Below, piece by piece: positions 4,395-57,484 of a DNA stretch of 64,000 bases (positions are counted from its first letter, which is position 1; every line of letters starts with the position of its first letter). The position numbers were made by a program, and so were the translations under genes. This stretch comes from Clostridiales bacterium (GTDB taxonomy: Bacteria; Bacillota; Clostridia; Lachnospirales; Lachnospiraceae): NCBI GenBank assembly GCA_015655075.1, contig JAATFT010000029.1, positions 1-64,000 of the forward strand, written 5' to 3'. Below the pieces are notes generated by a model. It was not told the origin of the DNA and searched no databases. It saw only the letters and a program-made list of their open reading frames with translations.

Positions 4395-5798
4395 TTAACT
4401 CATTTTTGATAGGATTTCTCTCGGTTTAAGGCGCATGACAGGGACGGAAGCCATACCAACCGATAAGGTAATGATAAGAATACCCAATCCGAACATTTGG
4501 AGCATTTCAGTTCCGCTGATAACAACATTCAGTTCAGGTGTGGTATTTTCATCTGTTGTGTCGCCACTCAAAAAATTATCATCACCCGCCACCGCACCGC
4601 CGGGATCTGCTGCGGCAACTTCATCGGCAGACTGTTCGGCGCTTGTGTTATTCTGCTGTCCCAGGAAATAGTTTCCGACTTGTCCTGCAATCATATTGCC
4701 GGAAAAGAACGAGAGCGAAAAAGCAAGGACAGCGATAATCAATACTTCCGTGAGATATTGACCGAAAACAGAAGTTTTGCGAATACCAACGGAAAGCAGT
4801 ACCCCTGTTTCGTGGATACGTCCTCTTGCCCACATGGTAAGAATGAGCGAAAGGATTACGATACTGACCGCTATAATGATGATAAGGAATGTGCTGACAA
4901 GCTGTGAAAGCTGCTTTAGAGAAGAAGCGGCGGCGTCATAAGCGGTATTGTCCGCTGTGATTGCAAATCCGTCCCAATCAATCAGAGAGATTTCTTTTAC
5001 AGCGGAAATAATAGCGTCCATGCTTTGCGGGTCATCTACAACAATCGTTGCTTCAAAAAAGCCTTGTACCGCGGAACTGTTCTCAATCGCAATAGCCGTA
5101 GCCAAATCAATAAAGATATGGTTTTGGATTTTGTCATAAGTCGTTACCTGGTCTGTAAAACTTTCAATCGCTTTCGGCTCAAATAAACCGACAATTTCAA
5201 TTTTTACTTCTGTTTCGTCGTTGCTGTGAGTGGTAATGATATCCCCAACCTTGAGATTGTTCTTTTCTGCCAAATCGCGGCTTATGATTGCGGTGTTGGT
5301 ATCGTTTTCTGTGATATGCCGTCCGGCAGTTAGTGTCAGGCTGCCCGATGTAAACAGGCCGCTTTCATCGCTTCGCCATACGCCGCGTGTCTTTACAGAA
5401 TGGCTATATTCTTCATCAATGGGTATGTTCCCCGCAAAAAGGCTCATGTCCGCAAATACCGCCAAAGACTCGGTGTTTGCGTCGCAGTATTTTACGCCCG
5501 GAATTTCTTTGATACTTTGTACAATTTCGGGTGTGATTTGCTTTGTGGAATACATGACCGTTCCAGTTTCGCCCATGCTTTCCGTTATCAGATAAGGATT
5601 GTTTTGGGAATAATCCACACTTAACAGAAATTCACCGCCAAGACTTTGCCGCAATTCCTGCTGTGCGTTGTCAGATGCTTTTCCAAGCGATAAGCCTGTC
5701 AAAACAAAAGTTGCCATAACCAACAGGATTATAAAGAGCAATAGGCTTTTGCCTTTTTTTCGCGTGACATATAGCCACGCCCGTTTTAGAAAACTCAC
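4395..5798 (-). CDS. ABC transporter permease, FtsX/MacB family
   Basis: A 467-residue membrane protein with the MacB layout: a membrane helix near residues 15-40 (SLLLFIILLVMATFVLTGL), a long extracellular MacB core domain and three C-terminal helices (VSTFLIIIIAVSIVILSLIL, VLIIAVLAFSLSFFSGNMIA, FGLGILIITLSVGMASVPVM). An Asn/Asp-rich linker before the last helix is unusual (AAADPGGAVAGDDNFLSG). I moved the start from 5813 to the GTG at 5798 because GGAGG lies directly before it and MSFLKRAWLYVTRKKGKS is the usual family start. It works with the downstream ATPase. Direct repeats shared with the regulator promoter lie 54-97 bases upstream. Confidence 0.85.
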   Translation of the reverse strand: MSFLKRAWLYVTRKKGKSLLLFIILLVMATFVLTGLSLGKASDNAQQELRQSLGGEFLLSVDYSQNNPYLITESMGETGTVMYSTKQITPEIVQSIKEIPGVKYCDANTESLAVFADMSLFAGNIPIDEEYSHSVKTRGVWRSDESGLFTSGSLTLTAGRHITENDTNTAIISRDLAEKNNLKVGDIITTHSNDETEVKIEIVGLFEPKAIESFTDQVTTYDKIQNHIFIDLATAIAIENSSAVQGFFEATIVVDDPQSMDAIISAVKEISLIDWDGFAITADNTAYDAAASSLKQLSQLVSTFLIIIIAVSIVILSLILTMWARGRIHETGVLLSVGIRKTSVFGQYLTEVLIIAVLAFSLSFFSGNMIAGQVGNYFLGQQNNTSAEQSADEVAAADPGGAVAGDDNFLSGDTTDENTTPELNVVISGTEMLQMFGLGILIITLSVGMASVPVMRLKPREILSKMS

Positions 5799-43579: not shown

Positions 43580-45010
43580 TTATTCCTCCGAGTTAGCTGA
43601 CGCATTATATTCGTCCAGAATTTGCTGGCATTGGTCATTAACGGCCTTAAGGCCTTCTTCAATGCTGGGATACTTGCCGGTAATAATATTTACCAGTCCC
43701 TGGGACATGGTGGTTTCAACTTCCGTGATTCCGCCGTAGCCTGGTTTCGTGTTCGTGTTGGCCGTCAGGATACCTTCGTCGTACTGCTCCACAAGATCCG
43801 GCCATAATTTTTCCGTATCGGCGCGGAGCGTCTCATCTTCATAAGAAGCAACGGAAATCGATGTGCGGGCGCCAACCTCAGTAACCCATCTGTGCCAGTA
43901 ATTGTTATCCACAAGCCATTCCAGGAATTTACCGGCCGCTTCCCCATTCTTAGTATTGGAGGAAACGCATACCTCCTGATTGGAGCTGATCATCTTTGTG
44001 ATGGATTTGTCTTCATTTACAATTGTTCCTTCATCCGGCATAGGCATATTTGCCATTACATATTCGAAATCCTCCGAAACGTCAAGGTCCGTAATAATAC
44101 CGGGCAGATATGTATAGCCGATATTAGTTGCACTTTTTCCGCCAAAGAACAATTCATGCCTGTCCATGTAGGTCATGCTTTCCGCATTTTCGGAAAAGGT
44201 TCCCGCATCATACATTTCCTTTAAAAACGTCATTGTTGTTACCGCCGCTTCATCCGTCAGCGTAATTGTTGATAAATCATCGCTGATAGGAGCGCCGCCC
44301 AGCTGCCAGTTCCAGTAATTGAATTCATTATTCATATCCGCATAATTGGACTGACTCATGGGAACACTGTAGCCGATATAGCCTGCTTTTGTCATTGCAA
44401 TTGCCGCCTCTTTAAACTCACTCCAGGTCTTAGGTACAGAATTTTCATCCAGACCGATCGCTTTCAGGGCTTCCTTGTTATAGCACATATAGGGAGAAAG
44501 GTCGCACCAGGAAGGTATCGTCCATAATTTACCGTCCCTGGAAGCCACTTTTTCCACTACGTCCGGAAGAATGGATTCCTTAACCTTTTCGGCTAACTTC
44601 GGATACGTATCTTCAATTGGGGAAATAATACCCAATCTTTTTCCATATTCGTCAATCACGGGACCTAAAATATAAATATCCGGTGAAGAATCTCCTGAAT
44701 AGGCAGTCACAATTTTCTCATTTCTGCTGGCCCATTCCTGTGCAACCATATTAACCTGAACGTCACTTTGCGCGGCGTTAAATTCGTCCGCCAGCTCCTT
44801 CCATACCGTTACCTCTGCAGACAATCCGCCAAACATCCAGACATCAATAGTTGTGGCATCCTGCGCAGGAGCTTCTGTCCCTTGTGCTTCCTTTGTTGAA
44901 CCGCCCGTAGATCCCTCTGAACCCGAAGGTGTTTTATTACTTTTACACCCGGTAAAGGAAACCATAACCATCGCAACTAGTAACAAAACTGATAAAAATT
45001 TCTTTTTCAT
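43580..45010 (-). CDS. sugar-binding lipoprotein of CUT1 ABC transporter
   Basis: A 476-residue family 1 binding protein with signal peptide and lipobox (VAMVMVSFTGCKSNK) and a Gly/Ser/Thr linker. Mature features include ATTIDVWMFGGLSAEVTVWK and WTIPSWCDLSPYMCYNKEAL. Its gene lies after, not before, the two permease genes in transcription order, as the last gene of the cluster. Given the GH106 gene upstream, a rhamnose-containing oligosaccharide is a reasonable guess for the ligand. Confidence 0.88.
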   Translation of the reverse strand: MKKKFLSVLLLVAMVMVSFTGCKSNKTPSGSEGSTGGSTKEAQGTEAPAQDATTIDVWMFGGLSAEVTVWKELADEFNAAQSDVQVNMVAQEWASRNEKIVTAYSGDSSPDIYILGPVIDEYGKRLGIISPIEDTYPKLAEKVKESILPDVVEKVASRDGKLWTIPSWCDLSPYMCYNKEALKAIGLDENSVPKTWSEFKEAAIAMTKAGYIGYSVPMSQSNYADMNNEFNYWNWQLGGAPISDDLSTITLTDEAAVTTMTFLKEMYDAGTFSENAESMTYMDRHELFFGGKSATNIGYTYLPGIITDLDVSEDFEYVMANMPMPDEGTIVNEDKSITKMISSNQEVCVSSNTKNGEAAGKFLEWLVDNNYWHRWVTEVGARTSISVASYEDETLRADTEKLWPDLVEQYDEGILTANTNTKPGYGGITEVETTMSQGLVNIITGKYPSIEEGLKAVNDQCQQILDEYNASANSEE

Positions 45011-45132
45011 AACTACCTCCTAAAATTTTTTAGTAACATTTTCTGGTAACATATATTCCAAAAGTGCTAAGCCGCTACACCCCGTTTCGCTAATGTACGG
45101 CCCTCACCTCCTGGCACAAGTTATAATACCAA

Positions 45133-45966
45133 TCACCCTTTTACCGAACCGGCCGTCAGTCCTGTGATTAAATTCTTGCCCAACAGAAGGAACAAAAGGA
45201 GTGTGGGCAGAGTTGCAATAATGGATGCGGCGCCCATTTCATTCCAGTAGGTTCCGAATTCCGTGATGAACCTCGATAATCCCAGGGATATTACATATTT
45301 TGACTCCGTTGTGGTAAGGACCAGTGCATACATATATTCATTCCACGCGCACATAAAAGCATATACGCCCACTGCCGCAATACCGGGCCTGGAGATTGGA
45401 ACTATGACCATTAAAAAGGCCTTTAATGCTCCGCAGCCGTCAATAATGGCGGCCTCCTCCAGTTCCTTGGGCACACCTTTAAAATACCCATACATCATCC
45501 AAATGGAAAATGCCAGACTGATGGTGGAATAGAGGAAAATCAAGCCCAGATGCGTGTCATATAATCCATAGAATTTATATAAATCAAATAATGCTATAAT
45601 AACGGACGAGCTTGGAAACATCTGGGCAACCAGTACAAATAACATCAGCGGCTTTTTAAAAGGAAATCTGCACTTTGCAAACCCATATGCAGCCAGGGAA
45701 GAAACGCACATACCGATCAATGTTGCACAAACCGTTATTTTTAAAGAATTCAGAATATATATCATAAACGGTTTGTTAATCCATACTTCCGGATAGGCGG
45801 CCAGGGTAAAATTTTTCGGCCATATTGTCACCGGTATTTCCAGCAGCTCGCCTGTGGTTTTGAACGAGGTAATAAGCATCCACACAAGAGGAAATACCGC
45901 TATCAATAAAACCACGACCAAAGCAATTATTTTTAAGCATTTAAGAATTAATTTCATTTTCTTCAT
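45133..45966 (-). CDS. carbohydrate ABC transporter permease, MalG-like
   Basis: A 277-residue CUT1 permease: six helices, EAA loop ELEEAAIIDGCGALKAFLMV and the terminal KNLITGLTAGSVKG that marks MalG-type subunits. Two bases separate it from the MalF-like gene upstream, and 122 bases from the binding-protein gene downstream. Confidence 0.9.
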   Translation of the reverse strand: MKKMKLILKCLKIIALVVVLLIAVFPLVWMLITSFKTTGELLEIPVTIWPKNFTLAAYPEVWINKPFMIYILNSLKITVCATLIGMCVSSLAAYGFAKCRFPFKKPLMLFVLVAQMFPSSSVIIALFDLYKFYGLYDTHLGLIFLYSTISLAFSIWMMYGYFKGVPKELEEAAIIDGCGALKAFLMVIVPISRPGIAAVGVYAFMCAWNEYMYALVLTTTESKYVISLGLSRFITEFGTYWNEMGAASIIATLPTLLLFLLLGKNLITGLTAGSVKG

Positions 45967-45968
45967 AA

Positions 45969-46862
45969 TCAGTCCTCCCCCGCCGCCTTGGTAATTTTAA
46001 GATAAATAATACTGAAAACCATTATTATGGCAAACTGAATAACCGAATAAGTGGCTGCAAGCCCAAAGCGGAATTTCTGAAAGGCTGTTTTATAAATCAG
46101 TATCGGTAAGGTGGTACTGGAAAGTCCCGGTCCTCCCGCCGTTAAAATATTCAGAATACCAAAACCATTCATGGACCAGATAAGCGCCATCAAAGAACAG
46201 ATGGTTAATACATATTTTAATTGTGGTAAAGTAATATACCAGAATCTTTGAACCTTACCGCATCCGTCAATATCCGCCGCTTCATAAATTTCCCTGTCAA
46301 TGCTTGAGAGCCCCGCACTAAGCATAATCGTTACAAAGGGATAAGTACGCCACACATAGACAACTCCAACCGATAAAAGGGCAAAACCTGCGGAAAACCA
46401 CTGAATGTAGCTATCCATAATTTGAAGCCTGTCCGCTAAAATGGAATTTAAAAGCCCCTTATCCCCATTTAAAATCCAGCGCCAGATAGAACCTACAACT
46501 ACTTCCGGCAGAACCCACGGCATAAACACGAGAGACCGGATAATATTTTTACATTTCGTCACTGAATTTAACAGCAAGGCAATCGCCATGGAAAGAATAA
46601 CGGATACAATTGTCACTCCAAAAGCAAATTTCACTACGTTGCCTAATACCTGGTAAAAATCCGGGTCACTCAGCGCCTTGGTATAGTTCACAAATCCGAT
46701 AATATTCCTGTCCCAGCTTTTTAACAGATTATAATCCGTAAAGCTAAAACCGAATCCTCTAATAATCGGAAACATGATAAATGCAAAAAGCATAATGAAT
46801 GCCGGAGCGATAAACAAAAATCCCCTTATTGCTTCCCTTCTTGCCAGTTTTGACTTTCCCAT
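45969..46862 (-). CDS. carbohydrate ABC transporter permease, MalF-like
   Basis: A 297-residue CUT1 permease starting MGKSKLARREAIRGFLFIAP, with GFSFTDYNLL and the EAA loop YEAADIDGCGKVQRFWYITL. I moved the start to 46862, behind GGAGG, from the track start at 46898. It partners the MalG-like protein downstream and lies 72 bases after the GH106 gene, with an R1 repeat remnant between. Confidence 0.9.
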   Translation of the reverse strand: MGKSKLARREAIRGFLFIAPAFIMLFAFIMFPIIRGFGFSFTDYNLLKSWDRNIIGFVNYTKALSDPDFYQVLGNVVKFAFGVTIVSVILSMAIALLLNSVTKCKNIIRSLVFMPWVLPEVVVGSIWRWILNGDKGLLNSILADRLQIMDSYIQWFSAGFALLSVGVVYVWRTYPFVTIMLSAGLSSIDREIYEAADIDGCGKVQRFWYITLPQLKYVLTICSLMALIWSMNGFGILNILTAGGPGLSSTTLPILIYKTAFQKFRFGLAATYSVIQFAIIMVFSIIYLKITKAAGED

Positions 46863-46892
46863 AAAACACCTCCACTTTCCAATTACGATATG

Positions 46893-46938
46893 ATTCAAAG
46901 CGGATATTCCGGGTCCGCTCCGCTACCTGTAAGGTTAA
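46893..46938 (-). repeat. repeat family R1, internally deleted copy at the GH106 stop
   Basis: On the minus strand TTAACCTTACAGGTA (left end of R1) is joined to CCCGGAATATCCGCTTTGA (right end). The TAA of GH106 lies inside the left-end TTAA. Confidence 0.65.
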
Positions 46939-49928
46939 ACGCCAAATCTCACAAAACAATAGGTATCTGTCCAAACATTTTCCCGTGGATCATCTTCAAA
47001 TGGGCCTGGCCTAGATGTAAAATTAGCCGGGCATACCGCAAAAAGTTCCCCGTCCACATGATGATGAGGCCCTAACAGATTCCGGTTGCCTCCAAACAAT
47101 TCAATTTCTATTGTGTTCATTCCTTTTTTCAGAAACTCCGTAATATCCGTATCATAAGGCTCCCACATTAACGGCTTTACCAGTTTTCCGTTAATATACA
47201 AACGTGCCGTAACCCCATAGGGTTTTCCAGGCTTGAAAATATAGGAAGCCTCTTCTTTTTCTGTAAGATAATACTTTTGGGAAAGTCTGATTTTTCCTGC
47301 AAAAAACAGCATTCCCTGGGTTACAAAATCACCAGACCAAAGGGACGTCGGTTTATCACCGATTACAAAGGGCCCCTCTGTGTAAACTGCATTCCGTTCC
47401 CCAAAGTAATAACCGCTTTTACTGTAAACGGAAAAATCGCCCGTCAGATAAATACTTTCTATTTCCGTATCAAGAGTCAGTTTATTCTTTTCGGTTTCCA
47501 GCACGTTTTCACCAAACAGGACTTCATACACATGGGGATCCTGGTAAAAATACCGTTCCAAAATAATAACATTCATTCCCTCACGGATATATTCCCTGAT
47601 GTCAATTTTCCGGAAGGACTTATCCAGCCACCACCTGGAAGGATCCGCCTTAACCGGATTTTTGTTGACCGTAATTTTAAACTCCTCCGCCAGTTCGGCC
47701 GCCAGATAGAATTCCTTATTATTTTCCAGATCCATCTGTATTTCAAACTCAAACTTCATCTTTAAATCACAGGGGCGTTTTCGTTTTAACAGCTCCTCCA
47801 TCATCTCAATAACCGGCATTTTAGGATGCCATTCGCCGCCGTCTATCGCATAAGCACAATAATCCAGCGTAAATGAATTATGATCCATCTCTTTAATATC
47901 CCAAACCCCGCCGGGCGTAACGGAAATAGATCTGCCAGGCTCCTTCCTCTTTATAACCCTTTCACCTTCCGGCCGGAAATCAATCAGAAATACATAAGCT
48001 CCCGCCGGCAGGAACAAAACCTCCCCTTTTGTTCTTTTTCCGTCAAAATCCGTTTTAAACTCTTCATAGGTATGGTCCTCCGGATGATAAAACAGAATCT
48101 TGTGATTTCCGGGGACACAAAGCTCCCCGACTGACGTCCGGCTTTGATTTAAATTAACCATATACAGGATTTTATATTCACCGCAGTCTCTCATCTGATA
48201 ATGGATTTCCGGAATTTCACGGCCGTTTTCCGTCAATGAAATCTCAAACTCCATTCTGGGGTATAGAATTTCTTTTACATCGCTTAAATCTGCTTTCTGA
48301 AGCTTTTTTTGAAACTCTTCCAATTCCGGTTCTTTTTTTCCTTCACAGAACCTGGGGGGCTTGCCCATAGTCAGGACGATTCCGCCATTTTCCATAAATT
48401 CCTTAAGCCGATTTACCGTAGACCGGTCAATTGTTACCATGGAAGGAAGTATAACGGCAGAATAGGCGCATTCACCTATATGCAGCTTTCCCTTTTCCAC
48501 CTTTGCGTATCTTTTTATTATGCCTTCATCCCCATAATGGTGATCAATGTGCAGGTCCGCCAAATGCTGCGACAAATCGGTAAAATCCACGTCATATTCT
48601 TTTAAATTTTCATTATTGCTTCCGTCATATAGTACCCAGGCACTTCGGATAGGGTGCAGCAGTAATACTTCCGTGTGTACTTTACCTGTTGTCAGCAATA
48701 CGCTAAGCCTGGCAAAGTAATCATTAAAAGTCTTATATTCACTCCACCAGGGCTGCTGGTAATACAGAGAAGGCGGATAGTCCCTTTTCCGGATTCCCCT
48801 GATGCTATACCCCATCAGATGCTGGCACATAATATTAACACCGTTTACATACTGCCACTGTGCAATCCATCTCATTTCTTCAAAGCTTACATTCCATCCG
48901 GTCATGGCGAACATTTCCGACAGGACATATCTCTTCCCCAGCTGACTGGCTACCGACCCCACCTGTTTCGGTGTAATGGGAGATATTATCTTTCTGCGCA
49001 GCCAGTCGATTCCCGGCATATGGATATATTCATAGGACGGCATTACTCCGGCAGTTCCCGTCATCTGCATCCAGAGACTGTCTTCCCGCATAACATGCCC
49101 GGTGAGACGGCAATTATGGGACTCACACCACTCATATATCTGTTTGCAGAAGGATTCCGTATATAATTCATTTATTACCTTCCAGTAATCATAACGAAAT
49201 TTTTCACCGCCTTTTATACCGTCAAAAAACAGTGCGGGAAGCAGTGTATAATAGGAATAACCCGCTCTGCCGGCAAATTCTTCTTCCAGGATATAGGACC
49301 AGGGAATTAATAATCTGGCAAATTGAGGTTCATCCGTAAAAAAACCGGGAATATCCGTACCAAGCCGCTCCCCGAACCTCTCCCTGTATCTTTCATGAGT
49401 ATATTCAATAAATTTTTCAACCACCCTGTGATTTAAAATGTCAATATAATAGGGGTTTGATTTATAACTGACGACATAAATATCCTCCTCTTTATCCAAA
49501 CCCTCCGCACCGGCGTAACGCTTCATTTCCTTATCATATATACCCAGCAGGCATTCCGGCTTTACGTAATCCTTTGCCTTAATCCGGATGCCTTCCATCC
49601 ATTTCATATGGTAATAATCCCCCAGGCCGGTTACATAACCGCCGCCGAATCCGCTGGGCCAGCCTTCTTCATCATAAAGCCAGGCTTTCATATCATTCTC
49701 TTTGCCTTCCTCTGCACAGGCTTTAACAATGTGCATCCATTCATCCTTCATATATTCTGTTTCAAGACCGCCTCTGGCATGCATAAAGAAACCGCCGAGC
49801 CCTGCTGCTTTCATCTGATTAATCTGCCATCTGCAGTTGCTTTCCTCAAGTTTGTCATTCCAGGACCAAAAGGGAAGAGCACGATTTTCCTGCGGCGGAT
49901 TATTTAATTTTCTATTTAAATTTTTCAT
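46935..49928 (-). CDS. GH106-like alpha-L-rhamnosidase
   Basis: A 997-residue glycoside hydrolase. The N-terminal TIM-barrel shows ENRALPFWSWNDKLEESNCR, GLGGFFMHARGGLETEYMKD and WLYDEEGWPSGFGGGYVTGL, which I associate with GH106. The middle includes GHVMREDSLWMQMTGTAGVM and YVLSEMFAMTGWNVSFEEMR. The C-terminus is a galactose-binding-like beta-sandwich (YINGKLVKPLMWEPYDTDIT; FLKKGMNTIEIELFGGNRNL). No signal peptide, so it is cytoplasmic and acts on imported oligosaccharides. The start at 49928 begins MKNLNRKLNN; the track start 38 codons earlier has no homology. It heads the cluster with the ABC permeases. Confidence 0.78.
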   Translation of the reverse strand: MKNLNRKLNNPPQENRALPFWSWNDKLEESNCRWQINQMKAAGLGGFFMHARGGLETEYMKDEWMHIVKACAEEGKENDMKAWLYDEEGWPSGFGGGYVTGLGDYYHMKWMEGIRIKAKDYVKPECLLGIYDKEMKRYAGAEGLDKEEDIYVVSYKSNPYYIDILNHRVVEKFIEYTHERYRERFGERLGTDIPGFFTDEPQFARLLIPWSYILEEEFAGRAGYSYYTLLPALFFDGIKGGEKFRYDYWKVINELYTESFCKQIYEWCESHNCRLTGHVMREDSLWMQMTGTAGVMPSYEYIHMPGIDWLRRKIISPITPKQVGSVASQLGKRYVLSEMFAMTGWNVSFEEMRWIAQWQYVNGVNIMCQHLMGYSIRGIRKRDYPPSLYYQQPWWSEYKTFNDYFARLSVLLTTGKVHTEVLLLHPIRSAWVLYDGSNNENLKEYDVDFTDLSQHLADLHIDHHYGDEGIIKRYAKVEKGKLHIGECAYSAVILPSMVTIDRSTVNRLKEFMENGGIVLTMGKPPRFCEGKKEPELEEFQKKLQKADLSDVKEILYPRMEFEISLTENGREIPEIHYQMRDCGEYKILYMVNLNQSRTSVGELCVPGNHKILFYHPEDHTYEEFKTDFDGKRTKGEVLFLPAGAYVFLIDFRPEGERVIKRKEPGRSISVTPGGVWDIKEMDHNSFTLDYCAYAIDGGEWHPKMPVIEMMEELLKRKRPCDLKMKFEFEIQMDLENNKEFYLAAELAEEFKITVNKNPVKADPSRWWLDKSFRKIDIREYIREGMNVIILERYFYQDPHVYEVLFGENVLETEKNKLTLDTEIESIYLTGDFSVYSKSGYYFGERNAVYTEGPFVIGDKPTSLWSGDFVTQGMLFFAGKIRLSQKYYLTEKEEASYIFKPGKPYGVTARLYINGKLVKPLMWEPYDTDITEFLKKGMNTIEIELFGGNRNLLGPHHHVDGELFAVCPANFTSRPGPFEDDPRENVWTDTYCFVRFGV

Positions 49929-50101: not shown

Positions 50102-51019
50102 TTATAATTTCCCGATTTCTTTTAAAATAGCCGCGGTAACTTCCATTTCTTCAGAGGTTGCAGGCGCAAGAGGACTTCTTGCGGGTCCCAGTTTGATACC
50201 CGTAATCATTTCAATTGCAGGACGCATTATAGAGTTGGGTAAAATTCTTCCGTTTTGTCCGGTTGATTTACAAAATTTATAGATAGGAATAAACAGGTCC
50301 TTTGCCTTCTGATTATCCCCTGCTGCAAAGGCTTTAAAAATCGCACGTATTTCGTGTCCGAATATATGTGCTCCACCGCTTACAATACCCATGGCTCCCT
50401 GGACAATCGTGGGGAGCAGCATAACATCGTCCCCGTTATAAACAACAAAGTCAGGATCCACTTTTTCCGTCGCCAGGAAGAAATCCGTCACCTGCGTGGG
50501 ATTAATGCCTGCTTCATCCTTAATTCCCACAATATTATCAATGACGGCCAGCTTTGCAACGGTTTCCGCTTCCAGATTAACTCCTACAAAAATTGGAATG
50601 TTATAAAGAAGAATATTACAGTTCGTACTTTCAGCAATTGCTTTATAATGATTATAAATGCCTTCCTGTGTGGGTTTGTTATAGAAGGGTACTACAATCA
50701 AACATAAATCAATACCAATTTTCTCCGCTTCCTTTGTAAGAGTAATTGCTTCTTTGGTAGAGGCACATCCGGTTCCTGCGATAACAGGCTTTCTGCCTTT
50801 TGCCGCCCTATAGGCAGTTTCCATTAATTTTACTCTTTCTTTAAAGTTACAAAGACTTGCTTCACCGGTTGTACCTGTAACAATTAAGGAATCACATAAA
50901 TCATTTTTAATCAGATATTCAATCAATTCTTCATATCTGTCATATGCAACTTCCTCCTTATCATTGTATGGTGTAATTAGCGGCAATAAAATTTGGCCAT
51001 ACTTTTCCACAAATGTCAT
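50102..51019 (-). CDS. DHDPS/NAL-family class I aldolase (paralogue 1)
   Basis: A 305-residue TIM-barrel lyase. It has the family pyruvate-site motif VTGTTGEASLC, the proton-relay tyrosine in LLYNIPIFVGVNL and the Schiff-base lysine in VGIKDEAG. Such enzymes make or break a bond between pyruvate and an aldehyde. Dihydrodipicolinate synthase itself is possible, but the neighbourhood (second paralogue, two GldA-like dehydrogenases, local GntR) suggests 2-keto-3-deoxy sugar acid breakdown. I use the ATG at 51019 behind AAGGAGAA. Its promoter shares an operator-like sequence with three others in the cluster. Confidence 0.82.
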   Translation of the reverse strand: MTFVEKYGQILLPLITPYNDKEEVAYDRYEELIEYLIKNDLCDSLIVTGTTGEASLCNFKERVKLMETAYRAAKGRKPVIAGTGCASTKEAITLTKEAEKIGIDLCLIVVPFYNKPTQEGIYNHYKAIAESTNCNILLYNIPIFVGVNLEAETVAKLAVIDNIVGIKDEAGINPTQVTDFFLATEKVDPDFVVYNGDDVMLLPTIVQGAMGIVSGGAHIFGHEIRAIFKAFAAGDNQKAKDLFIPIYKFCKSTGQNGRILPNSIMRPAIEMITGIKLGPARSPLAPATSEEMEVTAAILKEIGKL

Positions 51020-51047
51020 TTTATGTTCTCCTTTTGCATTTATTATA

Positions 51048-51103
51048 ATTGTATATTGTATGATGTCATTTTTTATTATATTATCTTGATTTTCTTTTGT
51101 CAA
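51048..51103 (-). promoter_or_regulatory. promoter and operator of DHDPS-like gene 1
   Basis: Minus strand: TTGACA (51098-51103), 17-nt spacer, TATAAT (51075-51080), then GACATCATACAATATACAAT covering the expected transcription start. The last element matches the two other strong sites in this cluster except for one missing A. Confidence 0.8.
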
Positions 51104-51256
51104 TATAATAATGCATACTGTTTATATTTTTATTTTATTTGTTCATTTAATATACATACTATACAATTTGTAACTATATATTTAAGATAAAACACTATAA
51201 AATTAAAAATATTAAGGCTTTTAGCGTAAATTATTGTTATGCTATTATTCCCGCTA

Positions 51257-51276
51257 ATTGTATGATATCATTCAAT
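51257..51276. promoter_or_regulatory. additional operator-like palindrome
   Basis: ATTGTATGATATCATTCAAT is palindromic apart from one T/T position and contains ATCATACAAT on the minus strand, the core of the cluster's operator. It lies 150 bases upstream of the DHDPS-like gene 1 promoter. The surrounding AT-rich DNA (51104-51463) holds no gene. Confidence 0.45.
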
Positions 51277-51463
51277 TTTCAGCTTTTTTAAGTGTAATTA
51301 TAATGCATAAATTTCAATATACCGCGAGAGGCCAAAACGGCTTTTTATAGGGGTTTTTATATGGCTTTTACAGGGCAAAAATAAAATACAGGGTAAGGAT
51401 TTTCCCATATATTGTGAAATTTCCCTGCTCTGTTTCTATTTTTAACAATTTATAAATAACTTA

Positions 51464-51781
51464 ACCTTACAAATAAGTTCTCCGCTTCTTAGTGAAGCGT
51501 TAGAGCGTGTTTGAAAAATCATTGTACCGTTTTGACCGCCCCACTTTGCGGTATGCTGCGTCACAATTTCGGAAACGTAGCCCCAACGCTCCCAAAATCG
51601 CTCCTTACCTCCCACAAAGTGGAACACCCAACCCGCCACAAGCATTTTTCAAACACACTCTAGGGGTGGGTTGGAGACTTGCTTGTTTCAGCCGGAGAGT
51701 GAGCTCCGACTGATATACCTGCATAGCAGATATAAGGTTATGAGCAAGTAGCACGGCGAACCCGGAATATCCGCTTTGACT
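51464..51781 (+). repeat. repeat family R1, complete copy interrupted by a MITE
   Basis: Left part TTAACCTTACAAATAAGTTC... to GAAGCG (51464-51500), right part GGGTTGGAGACTTGCTTGTT through CTGCATAGCAG to GGAATATCCGCTTTGAC (51663-51781). Without the insert, R1 is about 156 bp. It contains three hairpins: the long end palindrome, GGAG/CTCC and CTGC/GCAG. Confidence 0.75.
51501..51662. mobile_element. MITE-like element inserted within R1
   Basis: A full 162-bp copy: TAGAGCGTGTTTGAAAAATC at the left and GCATTTTTCAAACACACTCTA at the right. It splits the R1 palindrome between its two arms, showing that it moved in after R1 was in place. Ends begin and finish with TA. Confidence 0.85.
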
Positions 51782-51797
51782 ACAAAATTCCTCAGCC

Positions 51798-52910
51798 TTA
51801 TTTTGTAATCCGCCTGATTGCTTCTTTCAAAAATTTACGGTTGTCCTCATTATTTATAACAAATTGGGTACTGCATAAGTAATCAAAGATTTTCCTGCAA
51901 TTTTCATCTGTCTCGGCAATTCCCAGTTCGGACAAAGTTACCGGCATATGCATTTTTTTCATGAAATCTTTGAAAGCCGGGATTTTTTCCGGGGTCCTGT
52001 TATAATAAAGCTGCAGGATTAAGGAGGTTCCGACAATTTCCCCATGAAGAAAGCCAAGGGATTCCTTCGTAAAGAAAATTCTTGCCGCATAATACATCTC
52101 ATGTGCCAGCGCCGTCTGACCCAACGCTTTGGAGCTTCCGCTGATAATACCCGTGACTGCAAAATTGATAAAAAGAAAATCGTGTACTTCTTTCGATAAT
52201 TCATGCTTTTCTATATCCGAATATATCTTAATGCAATTCTTTTCCAATGTGTCATAGATATATGCTGCCAGCACATATGCCGTATATAATTCAACTCCAA
52301 AATCATCGAACTTGATTTCCTCTCGGCCGTTCTGTATTTCAATATATTTAGCCATGGCGTCAAGAATACCGGATGCCGCATATCTGGGCGGCTGATGGAG
52401 CATAATAGTCTCATCCACAATAACCGCCGACACCTCCCGCGGATGATAAAAGTTGCCTCCCGCCGTCCCCATTGCCGCCCCTTCCTTTGTATACATGACG
52501 CTCATTGGCGTAAATGCGGCACAGGTACCCGCCTGCGTAGGGATATTAACAACGGGAAGTTCTGCATAATGCGCCACCGCTTTAGCCAGATCCATAATTC
52601 TTCCGCCTCCGGCGCCTGCAACAACATCAAAATGATTTTCCCTGCAATAAGCTCCGTACTTTTTTGCAGCTTCATGAGTGGTATAGCCGTCATAAATCTT
52701 ATATTCGTATTGTATACCCGCATCTTTAAGGCTTTTTGTCAATTGCTCTTCCACTATTTTTATTGCCCTGCCTCCTCCCACAATAAATGCCTTATTTCCC
52801 AAACGGCTTATTTCTTTTCCCGCCAGCTTAATGGCACCCGGTTCCTGTATATAACGCCCGGCACCAAATTTAAAAGCCGCATCCGACTTTGATTTTAAAC
52901 TATTTTCCAT
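51798..52910 (-). CDS. GldA-like iron/zinc alcohol dehydrogenase (paralogue 1)
   Basis: A 370-residue member of the glycerol-dehydrogenase branch of the iron-ADH superfamily. The NAD site is VVAGAGGGRIMDLAKAVA, where arginine replaces the usual lysine of GGGKxxD. Metal ligands appear as Asp in SGILDAMAKYIE, His in TALAHEMYYAA and His in LGFLHGEIVG. It should interconvert a small hydroxy-carbonyl compound with NAD(H). I start at 52910 behind GGAG. It lies 21 bases after DHDPS-like gene 2 in the same operon, so it may process that aldolase's aldehyde product. Confidence 0.82.
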   Translation of the reverse strand: MENSLKSKSDAAFKFGAGRYIQEPGAIKLAGKEISRLGNKAFIVGGGRAIKIVEEQLTKSLKDAGIQYEYKIYDGYTTHEAAKKYGAYCRENHFDVVAGAGGGRIMDLAKAVAHYAELPVVNIPTQAGTCAAFTPMSVMYTKEGAAMGTAGGNFYHPREVSAVIVDETIMLHQPPRYAASGILDAMAKYIEIQNGREEIKFDDFGVELYTAYVLAAYIYDTLEKNCIKIYSDIEKHELSKEVHDFLFINFAVTGIISGSSKALGQTALAHEMYYAARIFFTKESLGFLHGEIVGTSLILQLYYNRTPEKIPAFKDFMKKMHMPVTLSELGIAETDENCRKIFDYLCSTQFVINNEDNRKFLKEAIRRITK

Positions 52911-52931
52911 ATCCGCTCCCAATGTATTCTA

Positions 52932-53813
52932 TTATTCCTCGCCTGAAAAGGCCTTTTTAATCTTTTCTTTTTCATCATCAGGTAAATAGGTAATAGGACT
53001 TCTGCATAACCCCGGCCCGCGTCCCATTACTTCCAGGGCATATTTCAGCCTGATTGGGAACTGGTTTCCTCCCAGGCACTGCCATTTGTTATACAACTGA
53101 TTCTGAATTTCAAACGCTCTTTCCTTATTTCCCGCCACAAAGCAGTCCCACATCTCTACACACTGCTTTGGAAATACCGACAGAATGGCCGATATGGCGC
53201 CTCTTGCCCCTAAATCATAACAGGTATAAAGCATGTCGTCTGTAGCCGCATATATTCTACCCTTATCCTTGCAGGTCATTTTCATGGCATAAAGCGCCTG
53301 GACACCGCCTACGCTCTGTTTTACACCCATTACATAATCCGTTTCCTCCAATAGACGCTTAAACAGCCCTGGATATATCGTATTTTGAGGAATAACATTA
53401 TATACAATTACAGGAAGCTGTACTTCCTTTGAAATAGTGCTATAAAAGTCAAACATCCCCTCTTCGTTGGGGACAAGAACGTTATACGCGGTCGGTGTAA
53501 CCATGATTACGTCGGCGCCTGCTTCCTTTGCAGCCAGGCCCGATCTGACGGCGTCCCTTGTACAGGCGCGCATAATCCCGCATACAATTGGCTGTTCTTT
53601 GCTTACATGTTCTTTTGCTATTGTAATTAATAACTGTAATTCTTCATCCCTTAATGTCGGGCCTTCTCCCGTGCTTCCTCCAACACTAAGACCATGAACC
53701 CCCGCTTTTATACAAATATCCATTTCCTTTGCGGCAAGCTTTTCATCAATAGTTCCGTCAGCCTTAAACGGCGTTATGGTCGGCGGAATGATTCCCTCAT
53801 ATTTTTTTCCCAT
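52932..53813 (-). CDS. DHDPS/NAL-family class I aldolase (paralogue 2)
   Basis: A 293-residue aldolase or dehydratase. Motifs: GLSVGGSTGEGPTLRDEE, proton-relay tyrosine in VIVYNVIPQNT and Schiff-base lysine in YVMGVKQSVGG. Only distantly similar to paralogue 1 (its glycine-rich loop reads GGSTGE instead of GTTGE), so the two probably have different substrates. AAGGAGG precedes the ATG. It is the first gene of an operon with a GldA-like dehydrogenase and is divergent from the second GldA-like gene. Confidence 0.83.
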   Translation of the reverse strand: MGKKYEGIIPPTITPFKADGTIDEKLAAKEMDICIKAGVHGLSVGGSTGEGPTLRDEELQLLITIAKEHVSKEQPIVCGIMRACTRDAVRSGLAAKEAGADVIMVTPTAYNVLVPNEEGMFDFYSTISKEVQLPVIVYNVIPQNTIYPGLFKRLLEETDYVMGVKQSVGGVQALYAMKMTCKDKGRIYAATDDMLYTCYDLGARGAISAILSVFPKQCVEMWDCFVAGNKERAFEIQNQLYNKWQCLGGNQFPIRLKYALEVMGRGPGLCRSPITYLPDDEKEKIKKAFSGEE

Positions 53814-53852
53814 AAGAACCTCCTTGTGATAACTGGTTAATCTGTTATGTAT

Positions 53853-53907
53853 ATTGTATTATTGTATGACATAATATGATTTTATATTAATTTACCTTTT
53901 TCGTCAA
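53853..53907 (-). promoter_or_regulatory. promoter and operator of the DHDPS-like 2 / GldA-like 1 operon
   Basis: Minus strand: TTGACG (53902-53907), 17-nt spacer, TAAAAT (53879-53884), then TATGTCATACAATAATACAA three bases further on. Same layout as the promoters at 51048 and 53988. Confidence 0.78.
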
Positions 53908-53987
53908 CCTTATTGTAAAAGAATCGCTATTTTTCCTGAATAGCCATTAATTATATTTTCCCCACTCCTTAAATTTAAAATACAGGA

Positions 53988-54049
53988 TTGACAAAATTGA
54001 AAATGTAAGATATGATTTTATTAGTAATATTGTATTATTGTATGATGTC
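53988..54049 (+). promoter_or_regulatory. promoter and operator of GldA-like gene 2
   Basis: TTGACA (53988-53993), 17-nt spacer, TATGAT (54011-54016), then ATTGTATTATTGTATGATGT (54029-54048). The operator is in inverted orientation relative to transcription but again sits over the first transcribed bases. Confidence 0.8.
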
Positions 54050-54084
54050 TTTAACTTATTTAATCCATCCTATGGGAGGTACTT

Positions 54085-55158
54085 ATGTCAAATAATATTT
54101 CTGCTTTAAAAATAGGATGCGGAAAATATTTTCACGGACAGGGTGTTATTTCACTGCTTGCCGAAGAAATTAAGCTTTTAGGCGGACATGCCCTTATTAT
54201 AGGCGGAAGCCGTACATTAGATATCGTTATGAATTCCGTATCCGATCAATTGGAAGCTTCCTCCGTTACCTATAAACTTTGCAGGCACACTGCCCAGTGC
54301 ACCACCGAATGGGCGCAGAGATATGCGGATATAGCCAAGGAACAGGAATGCACGGTATTCGTCGCCTGCGGCGGCGGAAAATGCATCGATACTGTAAAGT
54401 GTGCCTCCGTTTTTTCGGGTCTGCCCATTATCACAGTTCCCACTTCCATAGCAACCTGTGTCGCCGCATCAATGATTGCTATTATGTATGACGATTCGGG
54501 GAAAAGGGCGCCTGCGGTAAAATTAAAAAAAGCAATCGAAGTATGTATTGCCGACGACGGCCTGATCGGCACCGCTCCGAAAAGATTGCTGGCCGCAGGT
54601 ATTTTTGATTCTATTGCTAAATTTCCCGAAAGTCTGCATCAGAAAAAAGCCGCTTCCTATAAAGACTGCGATTTGTGCGAATATATCCAAATTACGAATT
54701 CTGAATGCATTTATGAATTTCTTGTCAACGAGGGACGCAACTTATATGCAAACGGAAAAAACGCAAACCGGTTTACCGATTGTATTTTAACCAATCTGCT
54801 GCATACAGCCATTGTGAGCGGATTCGCAGACGGTTCCGGTCAGCTGGCTCTTGCCCATGCAACCTATGATTTTATGAGAAATTATAATACTGAAAAAAGT
54901 GCTTCTATTTTGCACGGTGAAATTGTAGCCGTCGGTATATTAATTCAAATGGTTTTTAACCAGTCGCCCCAAAAGGATATTGATGAGATTTATGACCTGA
55001 TGAGATTTATGAATATGCCTCTGAAATTTAAGGATTTGAATTATGAAATTACGGAAGAAAGCCTTGGGTTTTTTACGGAAAAACTGGCACAGGCAACCAA
55101 TATCACAGCCGGGGAAGAGCTTGCCTTATTAAATAAAGCAGTTAAGGCCGTATTGTAA
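54085..55158 (+). CDS. GldA-like iron/zinc alcohol dehydrogenase (paralogue 2)
   Basis: A 357-residue glycerol-dehydrogenase-like enzyme. It has the standard NAD motif VACGGGKCIDTVKC and metal ligands in AGIFDSIAKFPE, LALAHATYDFM and SILHGEIVAVG. It differs clearly from paralogue 1 in the nucleotide loop. Typical reactions are NAD-linked reduction of dihydroxyacetone, lactaldehyde or glyoxal-like carbonyls. It is divergent from the aldolase operon and carries the same operator, so the two units should be co-regulated. Confidence 0.82.
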   Translation: MSNNISALKIGCGKYFHGQGVISLLAEEIKLLGGHALIIGGSRTLDIVMNSVSDQLEASSVTYKLCRHTAQCTTEWAQRYADIAKEQECTVFVACGGGKCIDTVKCASVFSGLPIITVPTSIATCVAASMIAIMYDDSGKRAPAVKLKKAIEVCIADDGLIGTAPKRLLAAGIFDSIAKFPESLHQKKAASYKDCDLCEYIQITNSECIYEFLVNEGRNLYANGKNANRFTDCILTNLLHTAIVSGFADGSGQLALAHATYDFMRNYNTEKSASILHGEIVAVGILIQMVFNQSPQKDIDEIYDLMRFMNMPLKFKDLNYEITEESLGFFTEKLAQATNITAGEELALLNKAVKAVL

Positions 55159-55318
55159 TCGAAAGTGAAAGATAGCCATTGGTGATGTATTGGCATTATT
55201 GCTTATATATTATATACATTTAATCAGCCTGTATATTTACAAACATCACCGGGCCATAGGAAGAACCTGTCTTTTGAATCGGCCGGGTCTTGCCGGGTCT
55301 TTGCCGACAACAGAATTT

Positions 55319-55390
55319 AGCCTTACAAGTAAGTCCCCCGCTTCTTAGCCAAGCGTAAGCAGTGAGTTTGGGACTTACTTGTTTCAGGAG
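55319..55390 (+). repeat. repeat family R1, left-half copy
   Basis: AGCCTTACAAGTAAGTCCCC ... GGGACTTACTTGTTTCAGG with inner CCGCTTC/AAGC pairing. It lies 160 bases after the GldA-like 2 gene and could end its transcript. Confidence 0.75.
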
Positions 55391-55428
55391 GTCATAAGTT
55401 ATGTGTACCCTTTCAAAAAGTAATTTAT

Positions 55429-55470
55429 TTGACAATAATTGCAAAATAATATAATATTACAACATACAAT
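55429..55470 (+). promoter_or_regulatory. promoter of the GntR gene with partial operator
   Basis: TTGACA (55429-55434), 17-nt spacer, TAATAT (55452-55457), followed by ACATACAAT (55462-55470). CATACAAT is the core of the operator found at the other three promoters, so weak autoregulation is likely. Confidence 0.65.
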
Positions 55471-55474
55471 TCTA

Positions 55475-55563
55475 TTATAGAAACAAAAAACGTGTTTCTA
55501 TAATCGGATGCACGGCGCAGAACCAGCGCCTTTTATCAGAAGATAAAAACAATCTTCTGATAA
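55475..55563 (+). repeat. repeat family R2, three-hairpin copy in the GntR leader
   Basis: Three stems in a row: TTATAGAAAC/GTTTCTATAA (10 bp), GGCGC/GCGCC (5 bp), TTATCAGAAGAT/ATCTTCTGATAA (12 bp), all perfect. It would be transcribed as the 5' leader of the GntR mRNA. Confidence 0.75.
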
Positions 55564-55618
55564 GTTATATTATATTTTATAATTATATAAATACTATTTT
55601 CCCGTTAGGAGGGCGTAT

Positions 55619-56314
55619 ATGAAGGAAATCAAGCGAATATCTGTTACAGATTCTGTTGTTGAAAATATTAAACTTTCCATTGATTCCGGCGAATATCTGC
55701 CGGGAGATAAGCTTCCAACCGAAAACAGAATGTGTCAGGAAATGGGCGTAAGCCGTACTTGTATCCGCGAGGCAATACGTGTTTTACAGGCTATCGGGTA
55801 CGTGGATATATTTCCTGGCAAAGGTGCCTTCGTATCAAAAAAAATAACAGAATCAAAAAAACAATGGTATGATATACCCGACGTTCAGTTTTATGATTTT
55901 ATGGAAGTGCGTATGGCAATTGAAACTCTTTCAACCCGCCTGGCAATTAAACGCGCTACAAAAAAACAAATCCAGAAGTTATCTGTGATTCATGAAAAAT
56001 TTGTACAGGCTGTGGAGGATAAAAACCTTATTCAGTTAATCATGTATGATGAATTATTTCATACGGAAATTGTCAAAATTACAAACAATAACTTACTGAT
56101 AGCAATCAATAAACAGATTAATACCGCTTTTAAAAAATACCGCGGGGAATCTTTTATGGATAACTCAGTCTACAAAAATGCGGTGGTACCCCATACAAAA
56201 ATTCTTGAGGCCTTTAAATTAAACGATCCGGAACTGGGTCAGGCCGAAATGTACAACCACCTTGTTATTACCGAACAAGACATCAAGCATATCAACGAAG
56301 GCTTTGATCAATAA
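55619..56314 (+). CDS. GntR family regulator, FadR subfamily (FCD domain)
   Basis: A 231-residue regulator: N-terminal winged helix (SIDSGEYLPGDKLPTENRMC, MGVSRTCIREAIRVLQAIGY, GKGAFVSKK) and a helical FCD ligand domain (DFMEVRMAIETLSTRLAIKR, MYDELFHTEIVKITNNNLLI, EMYNHL). FadR-type proteins with FCD domains usually sense sugar acids or their breakdown products and repress nearby genes. Four operator-like sites lie at promoters in this cluster, including its own. GGAGG precedes the ATG. A MITE remnant directly follows its stop. Confidence 0.9.
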   Translation: MKEIKRISVTDSVVENIKLSIDSGEYLPGDKLPTENRMCQEMGVSRTCIREAIRVLQAIGYVDIFPGKGAFVSKKITESKKQWYDIPDVQFYDFMEVRMAIETLSTRLAIKRATKKQIQKLSVIHEKFVQAVEDKNLIQLIMYDELFHTEIVKITNNNLLIAINKQINTAFKKYRGESFMDNSVYKNAVVPHTKILEAFKLNDPELGQAEMYNHLVITEQDIKHINEGFDQ

Positions 56315-56315
56315 A

Positions 56316-56461
56316 TTATTGCACCGTTCTGGCCGCTCCACTTTGCGGTATACTGCGTCGAGGTTTTGGGAGCGTAGCACCACTACGCGCCCAAAATCGC
56401 TCCTTGCCTCCCACAAATTGGAGCATCCAGCCCGGTACAAGCATTTTTCAAACACACTCTA
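56316..56461. mobile_element. MITE-like element, left end lost, supplying a stop codon
   Basis: ATTGCACCGTTCTGGCCGCT through GCATTTTTCAAACACACTCTA. It fills the whole gap between the convergent GntR and GH130 genes. Its terminal CTA is the TAG stop of the GH130 frame. Confidence 0.8.
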
Positions 56462-57484
56462 GCGCATTCCAATTTCAGTGTCTTCCTCTGTTAATACACT
56501 GTGTTCCTTAATATAATCCACTATTTCATCAAATTGGGTAAATGCCAGGCACACATAACTGTCCGCCGCGCCATAGTAGATAGCAATTTTTCCGCTCTCC
56601 GGGTCATGGATTGTGGCGCAGGGGAATACAACGTTTGGAACAAAGCCCCTTTCTTCATACCACTCCTGGGGTGTTAATAAGAAGTTTTCGCATCTGTATT
56701 TTACTACGGACGGATTCTCAAGATCTAAGATTGCTCCGCCAATGCTGTATACAAAACCGTTGCAGGTTCCGCTTACGCCGTGATAGAATAACAGCCAGCC
56801 TTGCGTTGTTTCAATGGGAGCCGCTCCGCCGCCTATTTTAACGGATTCCCACCATCCGCGGCCTCTTCCCATCACATGTCTGTGTTTGCCCCAGTAAACC
56901 AGGTCCGGGCTTTCGCTTACAAATATATCGCCGAAGGGTGTATGGCCCCCGTCGCTTGGACGGCTTAGCATAACGAAGTTGCCGTTGATTTTTCTCGGAA
57001 ATAATACCGCATTTCTGTTATAAGGAATAAAAGGATTTTCCAGTCTGACAAACTTTTTGAAATTAACAGTTTTAGCCATTCCTATGGCGGCTCCGTAAAA
57101 ATCCTGGCACCAGATAATATAATAGGTGTCCTCCACTTTTACTAAACGGGGATCATAGGCATATCCTGGTATGAACGGATTTGCGTTTTCATCTTCAAAA
57201 GGAACTTTTTCCTTCTCCATATCCCAGTGAATTGCGTCCTTACTTCTTCCCATATAGATATAAGGAACCCCATTTACCTGTTCTGCACGGAATACGCCGA
57301 TAAATTCGTCATTATAAGGTATTACGGCGCTATTAAAAATTCTTGCAACGCCTTCCGCCGGATTTCTTCCTATAACAGGATTCTCTTTATATCTCCAAAT
57401 GGGTGCTCCCACAATTTTTTCAGGTCTTTCCTGCCATGGTACGTTTTTTACCGCAGGACCTATCATTTTAATTTTACTCATCAT
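56459..57484 (-). CDS. GH130 beta-mannoside phosphorylase
   Basis: A 341-residue glycoside phosphorylase. Family motifs: NPAEGVARIFNSAVIPYNDE, the catalytic aspartate region GYAYDPRLVKVEDTYYI, and GGGAAPIETTQGWLLFYHGV. GH130 enzymes use phosphate to split beta-mannosides to alpha-mannose 1-phosphate. No signal peptide, so it is cytoplasmic. I start at 57484 (MMSKIKMIGP) behind GAAGGAAAA. Its last residues (TEIGMR) and stop abut a MITE, so the native C-terminus may have been slightly longer. It is downstream of a sugar ABC operon and near a mannose-6-phosphate isomerase gene. Confidence 0.9.
   Translation of the reverse strand: MMSKIKMIGPAVKNVPWQERPEKIVGAPIWRYKENPVIGRNPAEGVARIFNSAVIPYNDEFIGVFRAEQVNGVPYIYMGRSKDAIHWDMEKEKVPFEDENANPFIPGYAYDPRLVKVEDTYYIIWCQDFYGAAIGMAKTVNFKKFVRLENPFIPYNRNAVLFPRKINGNFVMLSRPSDGGHTPFGDIFVSESPDLVYWGKHRHVMGRGRGWWESVKIGGGAAPIETTQGWLLFYHGVSGTCNGFVYSIGGAILDLENPSVVKYRCENFLLTPQEWYEERGFVPNVVFPCATIHDPESGKIAIYYGAADSYVCLAFTQFDEIVDYIKEHSVLTEEDTEIGMR

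Follow-up and report, generated by a model that had tools for sequence, protein, structure and literature searches.

The 64-kb stretch of DNA analysed here (the window; 64,000 nt) is highly likely to carry a local regulon under one FCD-type GntR repressor, which would also control its own gene, with a conserved predicted operator over or after the −10 boxes of its promoters. The regulator gene adjoins a small sugar-acid gene cluster. Because the pairing of regulator and site is kept in six related genomes, the predicted regulon is very probably real; it is of an ordinary kind. Its likely members are gntR itself, DH2, dapA2-DH1, and dapA1 followed by a GH106-like gene and an ABC transporter. 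The original prediction of an operator and regulon for this regulator thus holds for the link between regulator and site, but the shape of the operator, the number of sites and the description as "unusual" are corrected below.

Gene Cluster and Probable Pathway

The genes concerned are the following (L numbers denote related loci).

43580–46898, minus strand: ABC sugar transporter, two permeases and a solute-binding protein (ORFs; Pfam for the binding protein and one permease)
46935–49928, minus strand: GH106-like protein, the next gene downstream of dapA1 and on the same strand (Pfam Glyco_hydro_106, 66 bits, above cut-off)
50102–51019, minus strand: dapA1, DHDPS-family protein (Pfam; alignment to 1xky)
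51798–52910, minus strand: DH1, second glycerol-dehydrogenase-like protein (Pfam, NCBIfam; follows dapA1 in L058 and L087)
52932–53813, minus strand: dapA2, DHDPS/NAL-family lyase or aldolase (Pfam; alignment to 3si9)
54085–55158, plus strand: DH2, glycerol-dehydrogenase-like protein of the Fe-ADH family (Pfam, NCBIfam; orthologues in L025, L058 and L087)
55619–56314, plus strand: gntR, FCD-domain GntR regulator of 231 aa (GntR and FCD domains above the Pfam cut-offs, at 67.5 and 78.1 bits; orthologues 52–81% identical in conserved clusters)

DH1 lies about 20 bp after dapA2 on the same strand. The GH106-like gene is in one block with DH1, dapA1 and dapA2 in L087, which makes it a probable part of the same pathway and a probable member of the regulon. 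We infer read-through from dapA1 into the GH106-like and ABC transporter genes, across a gap of ~170 bp, by which the transporter may also be a member; a related solute-binding protein is found near the cluster in L025.

Alignments to 1xky and 3si9 show that dapA1 and dapA2 keep the Schiff-base lysine of the family, and that the DHDPS substrate arginine is replaced by Phe in dapA1 and Gln in dapA2. This arginine, Arg138 in E. coli DapA numbering, binds aspartate semialdehyde. With it lost, both DapA-like proteins are probably catabolic. A role in lysine synthesis is unlikely for either from these residues, despite dapA1 passing the NCBIfam DapA cut-off (TIGR00674; 230 versus 206 bits), and the assembly carries five other full-length DHDPS-family genes. 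A protein that exceeds an equivalog cut-off with Phe in place of the substrate arginine is a likely source of misannotation. The most likely reading of the gene content is catabolism of a 2-keto-3-deoxy acid or similar compound, in which the GldA-like dehydrogenases would take aldehyde or alcohol products. Searches of the open-access literature found no paper on this gene combination, nor any on the operator sequence.

The leader of gntR (55465–55618), which spans the ~150 nt from operator to start codon, contains three strong hairpins, two of them with 12-bp stems (z-score −5.65). An Rfam search of the window, this leader included, gave no match. The hairpins are not seen in L025, where gntR directly follows DH2. 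The cluster is also flanked by copies (51505–51665 and 56313–56462) of a dispersed repeat of ~160 bp with partly complementary ends, present in at least 40 copies across the assembly at 87–95% identity. Further repeats, 83–85% identical, pair up on both sides of the cluster (51458–51503 with 55314–55359, and 51666–51691 with 55362–55387).

Promoters and Operator Sites

A TTGTATGAYRTCAT-like site lies over the start region of the dapA1, dapA2, DH2 and gntR promoters. Ranks in the list below are those given by a matrix built from the sites of the related loci only (the relatives-only matrix).

51075–51103, minus strand: predicted dapA1 promoter, TTGACA (51103–51098), N17, TATAAT (51080–51075), a perfect consensus (read from the sequence)
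51048–51073, plus strand: dapA1 operator, TTGTATA-TTGTATGA-TG-TCATTTTT (ranked third)
53879–53907, minus strand: predicted dapA2 promoter, TTGACG (53907–53902), N17, TAAAAT (53884–53879) (promoter scan)
53854–53879, plus strand: operator of the dapA2-DH1 operon, TTGTATTA-TTGTATGA-CA-TAATATGA (ranked second)
53988–54016, plus strand: predicted DH2 promoter, TTGACA (53988–53993), N17, TATGAT (54011–54016) (promoter scan)
54030–54055, plus strand: DH2 operator, TTGTATTA-TTGTATGA-TG-TCTTTAAC (top match, 27.7 bits)
55429–55457, plus strand: predicted gntR promoter, TTGACA (55429–55434), N17, TAATAT (55452–55457) (sequence and promoter scan)
55452–55470, minus strand: operator-like site over the gntR −10 box, TTGTATGTTGTAATATTA on the minus strand (ranked fourth)
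51258–51275, plus strand: distal, nearly perfect palindromic site, TTGTATGATATCATTCAA (ranked fifth; best palindrome match in the assembly)

The elements of the original prediction were all located: the dapA1, dapA2 and DH2 promoters have TTGAC(A/G)-N17 boxes followed by a common sequence, GACATCATACAATAATACAA or a close variant, with two sites in one sense and one in the opposite. At DH2, TTGTATTATTGTATGATGTC occupies 54030–54049, after the −10 box (the exact 20-mer on the minus strand). The site described as lacking one A is that of dapA1, where the −10 box is followed by TGACATCATACAATATACAA; the one described as differing in its first bases is that of dapA2, with TATGTCATACAATAATACAA. The core reported at the same place in the promoter of gntR is the short ACATACAAT at 55462–55470, over the −10 box. 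This promoter, for which N15-TATAAT is an alternative reading of the boxes, is weaker than the three near-consensus promoters of dapA1, dapA2 and DH2, and its site is the weakest of the four, without a good direct half-site at 8 bp. The core begins a few bases from the end of the −10 box at dapA1, dapA2 and gntR, and 21 bases after it at DH2, where the direct arm comes first.

All four reported promoter sites are real, but the fifth, at 51258–51275, had been overlooked. Of the five sites it is the most palindromic, and it stands ~200 bp upstream of the operator of dapA1. Elsewhere in the same genome, on contig 17 (L064), an FCD-like GntR gene (4938–5639; product 28% identical to the window regulator) stands just before TTGTATTACATCATACAA (5695–5712), followed by transporter genes; regulator and palindrome are probably both related to those of the window.

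On both strands of the window, the relatives-only matrix places the four reported sites at ranks 1–4, with 27.7, 20.8, 19.7 and 19.1 bits, against a mean of 13.4 and a peak of 19.6 for the best scores in 40 Markov shuffles. Matrix scans covered the window and the loci of the relatives, and the assembly (4.5 Mb) was searched by pattern; as it is 79% complete, distant regulon members could be missing. The 16-mer TCATACAATAATACAA has two exact copies, both in the window, and none elsewhere in the assembly. When up to two mismatches are allowed, its genome-wide frequency equals that of a reversed-pattern control, and as a plain 16-mer search this is uninformative. Exact tandem sites were found nowhere else in the assembly by pattern search, and the tandem form is thus not a sequence of many unrelated promoters, an outcome that the original prediction had named as contrary to it.

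Shape of the Operator

The 21-bp operator initially proposed corresponds to a conserved site that is real, but its structure, a dyad with an added direct repeat, has three arms and is not that of a plain 21-mer. The core TTGTATGA is one arm; a direct half-site precedes it by 8 bp and an inverted half-site follows it by 10 bp, giving the consensus TTGTATKA-TTGTATGA-YR-TCATANNN. The 20-mer first noticed consists of the direct-repeat part and the beginning of the inverted arm, and the "missing A" of dapA1 arises because its direct arm lies at 7 instead of 8 bp. When the sites are aligned on TTGTATGA, the best of all offsets tested is −8 for the direct half-site (4.8 of 8 matches versus a background of 2.4, sd 0.3) and +10 for the inverted one (4.6 versus 2.3, sd 0.26), which is ~8–9 sd above background in the orthologous set. 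The same two offsets again rank first in a separate set taken from regulators of 43–45% identity. Across sites, the better the direct arm, the poorer the inverted arm tends to be (Spearman −0.49, p 0.007, n 29; orthologous set alone, −0.37, p 0.10). This trade-off is only suggestive, because the sites are related by descent.

Conservation in Related Loci

Orthologues of the regulator were found in six loci: L025 (81% identity), L058, L087 and L059 (57%), L060 (56%) and L026 (52%). These are not fully independent, as a single bacterial family contributes several of them and L058 and L087 share a genus; genus-level searches for further close orthologues yielded one new genome. The neighbouring genes include dapA1 and dapA2 in all six and DH2 in three (L025, L058 and L087). 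In the orthologous clusters, each dapA2, DH2, dapA1 or gntR gene that opens a transcription unit has a site upstream, in most cases immediately behind the −10 box.

The sites of the relatives were chosen partly with the window core in mind, and for this reason the reverse test, with a matrix made from the four window sites only, weighs more. In all six loci its top matches include sites upstream of orthologous genes, as follows.

L025: dapA2, DH2
L026: dapA2, dapA1, gntR
L058: dapA2, gntR, DH2
L059: dapA1, dapA2, gntR
L060: dapA2, gntR, dapA1
L087: dapA2, DH2, gntR

L087, the last locus to be added and not part of any matrix, has the same layout. The core occurs within ~300 bases upstream of 14 of 23 cluster genes, with operon-internal genes scored as misses; among the 62 remaining genes of these loci, 7 have it (p ~1e-5). 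Promoter scores of at least 10 were obtained at 13 of 18 sites, versus 3% of simulated sequences. Both positions of the core relative to the −10 box (a few bases away, or DH2-like with the direct arm first) recur in the relatives. For dapA2 of L026 the automatic promoter call failed, and TTGACA-N17-TTTAAT is readable by eye; gntR of L058, L059 and L060 has no clear promoter, so that the position of the site over the start cannot be judged there. In L025, gntR, lying directly behind DH2, has no site of its own, and L058 and L087 each have one more site, midway between the divergent dapA2 and DH2 genes. In different gene contexts, the genes of more diverged regulators (43–45% identical) also adjoin this core.

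The exact palindrome TTGTATG-N4-CATACAA occurs in 5 of 200 genomes of the family, beside homologues of the regulator in two; in the ~3-kb loci of the other three no homologue was found. It was not adopted as a general mark of a wider FCD subfamily.

Repressor Model and Alternatives

In the proposed mechanism, a regulator dimer, possibly two per operator, would bind the start region and stop RNA polymerase from initiating or clearing the promoter. The FCD domain would bind a small acid, probably one that the two NAL/DHDPS-family enzymes consume or form, and the resulting release of the regulator would switch on the aldolase/dehydratase steps, the two GldA-like dehydrogenases and probably the GH106-like hydrolase together with the ABC sugar importer. 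The distal palindrome at 51258 might conceivably stabilise repression of dapA1 by looping.

A high AT content of promoter DNA could in principle produce the likeness of the sites by chance. The sequence here is AT-rich, and the site at the gntR promoter shares only a short exact core, but matrix scores exceed those of the shuffles, conservation is reciprocal across the six loci, and there is no excess elsewhere in the genome; the conservation in related loci already refutes a chance likeness, whose probability is negligible. It is very unlikely that another FCD regulator, such as the contig 17 paralogue, binds the sites while the adjacent GntR protein acts elsewhere or only in part. The palindrome adjoining the contig 17 gene is one mismatch from the palindromic form, and some cross-binding by that regulator is possible, given how similar the two sequences are. 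The site, however, tracks gntR orthologues in six loci and also adjoins the homologues of 43–45% identity, and exact direct-repeat forms are found in the assembly at the gntR cluster only (pattern search). The contig 17 protein is moreover just 28% identical, with transporter and nucleoside-type genes as neighbours.

Repression rather than activation is suggested by the position of the sites, since placement in the start region fits a repressor that blocks initiation or clearance, as is described for NanR (PMC8012715). Some GntR regulators do activate, and the distal site at 51258 lies upstream of a promoter, as would suit an activator or dual-acting protein. Such a role seems improbable here: in the window and the relatives alike, the promoter-proximal sites lie over the −10 box or after it, and the near-consensus promoters of the window would not require an activator. 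A simple repressor is the preferred reading.

Comparison with Known Systems

The regulator is an uncharacterised FCD protein, for which the analysis predicts an operator and a regulon from sequence, with cross-checks. It places four enzymes, and probably a transporter, in one pathway; two of these enzymes are open to misannotation as lysine-biosynthesis proteins: dapA1 and dapA2 share the fold family and Schiff-base lysine of the DapA/N-acetylneuraminate lyase family but differ from DapA in the residue at the position of the substrate arginine.

Palindromes of the FadR subfamily are AT-rich, with autoregulation and extra half-sites 7–12 nt from the site centre, and typically have a GT-N2/3-AC core, with listed exceptions (Suvorova et al. 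2015, PMC4494728). The present system resembles them in its FCD regulator, AT-rich palindrome, predicted autoregulation and extra half-site. A start-region operator, autoregulation and an extra half-site are usual for GntR repressors, and the architecture is not "unusual" as first described. The usual core is absent, however: the conserved dyad is GT-N10-AC, with 10 nt between GT and AC (TTGTATGAYRTCATACAA), and the inverted arm is often inferior to the extra direct arm.

NanR of E. coli is an FCD GntR repressor of sialic acid catabolism, and its direct-repeat operator, (GGTATA)3, lies downstream of where the polymerase binds (PMC8012715). The window regulator is similar in having an FCD metal site whose Asp and three His align with NanR residues (DELFH, PHTKI, NHL), in its predicted control of NAL-family enzymes, and in a start-region operator with direct repeats. 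The NCBIfam NanR profile is its best match, but at 99.1 bits it is far below the cut-off of 260. The 32-residue N-terminal extension of NanR is absent, the alignment starting at residue 5 here and 28 in NanR. Sialic acid catabolism, suggested by this resemblance, was set aside; no other nan (sialic acid) genes are seen near the cluster. The half-site also differs, being TTGTATGA and not GGTATA, with a direct repeat of TTGTAT and an inverted arm that is also conserved. We tentatively raise the possibility, itself rather doubtful, that the three-armed operator of this clade of FCD regulators can take its second half-site from either the direct repeat 8 bp before the core or the inverted repeat 10 bp after it, one dimer fitting both geometries. 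Sites would then drift between the two forms and, in evolution, link GntR palindromes of the ordinary kind to NanR-type direct repeats. If the exchange of direct and inverted half-sites is real, these operators form a natural series in which to study the origin of NanR-like direct-repeat recognition.
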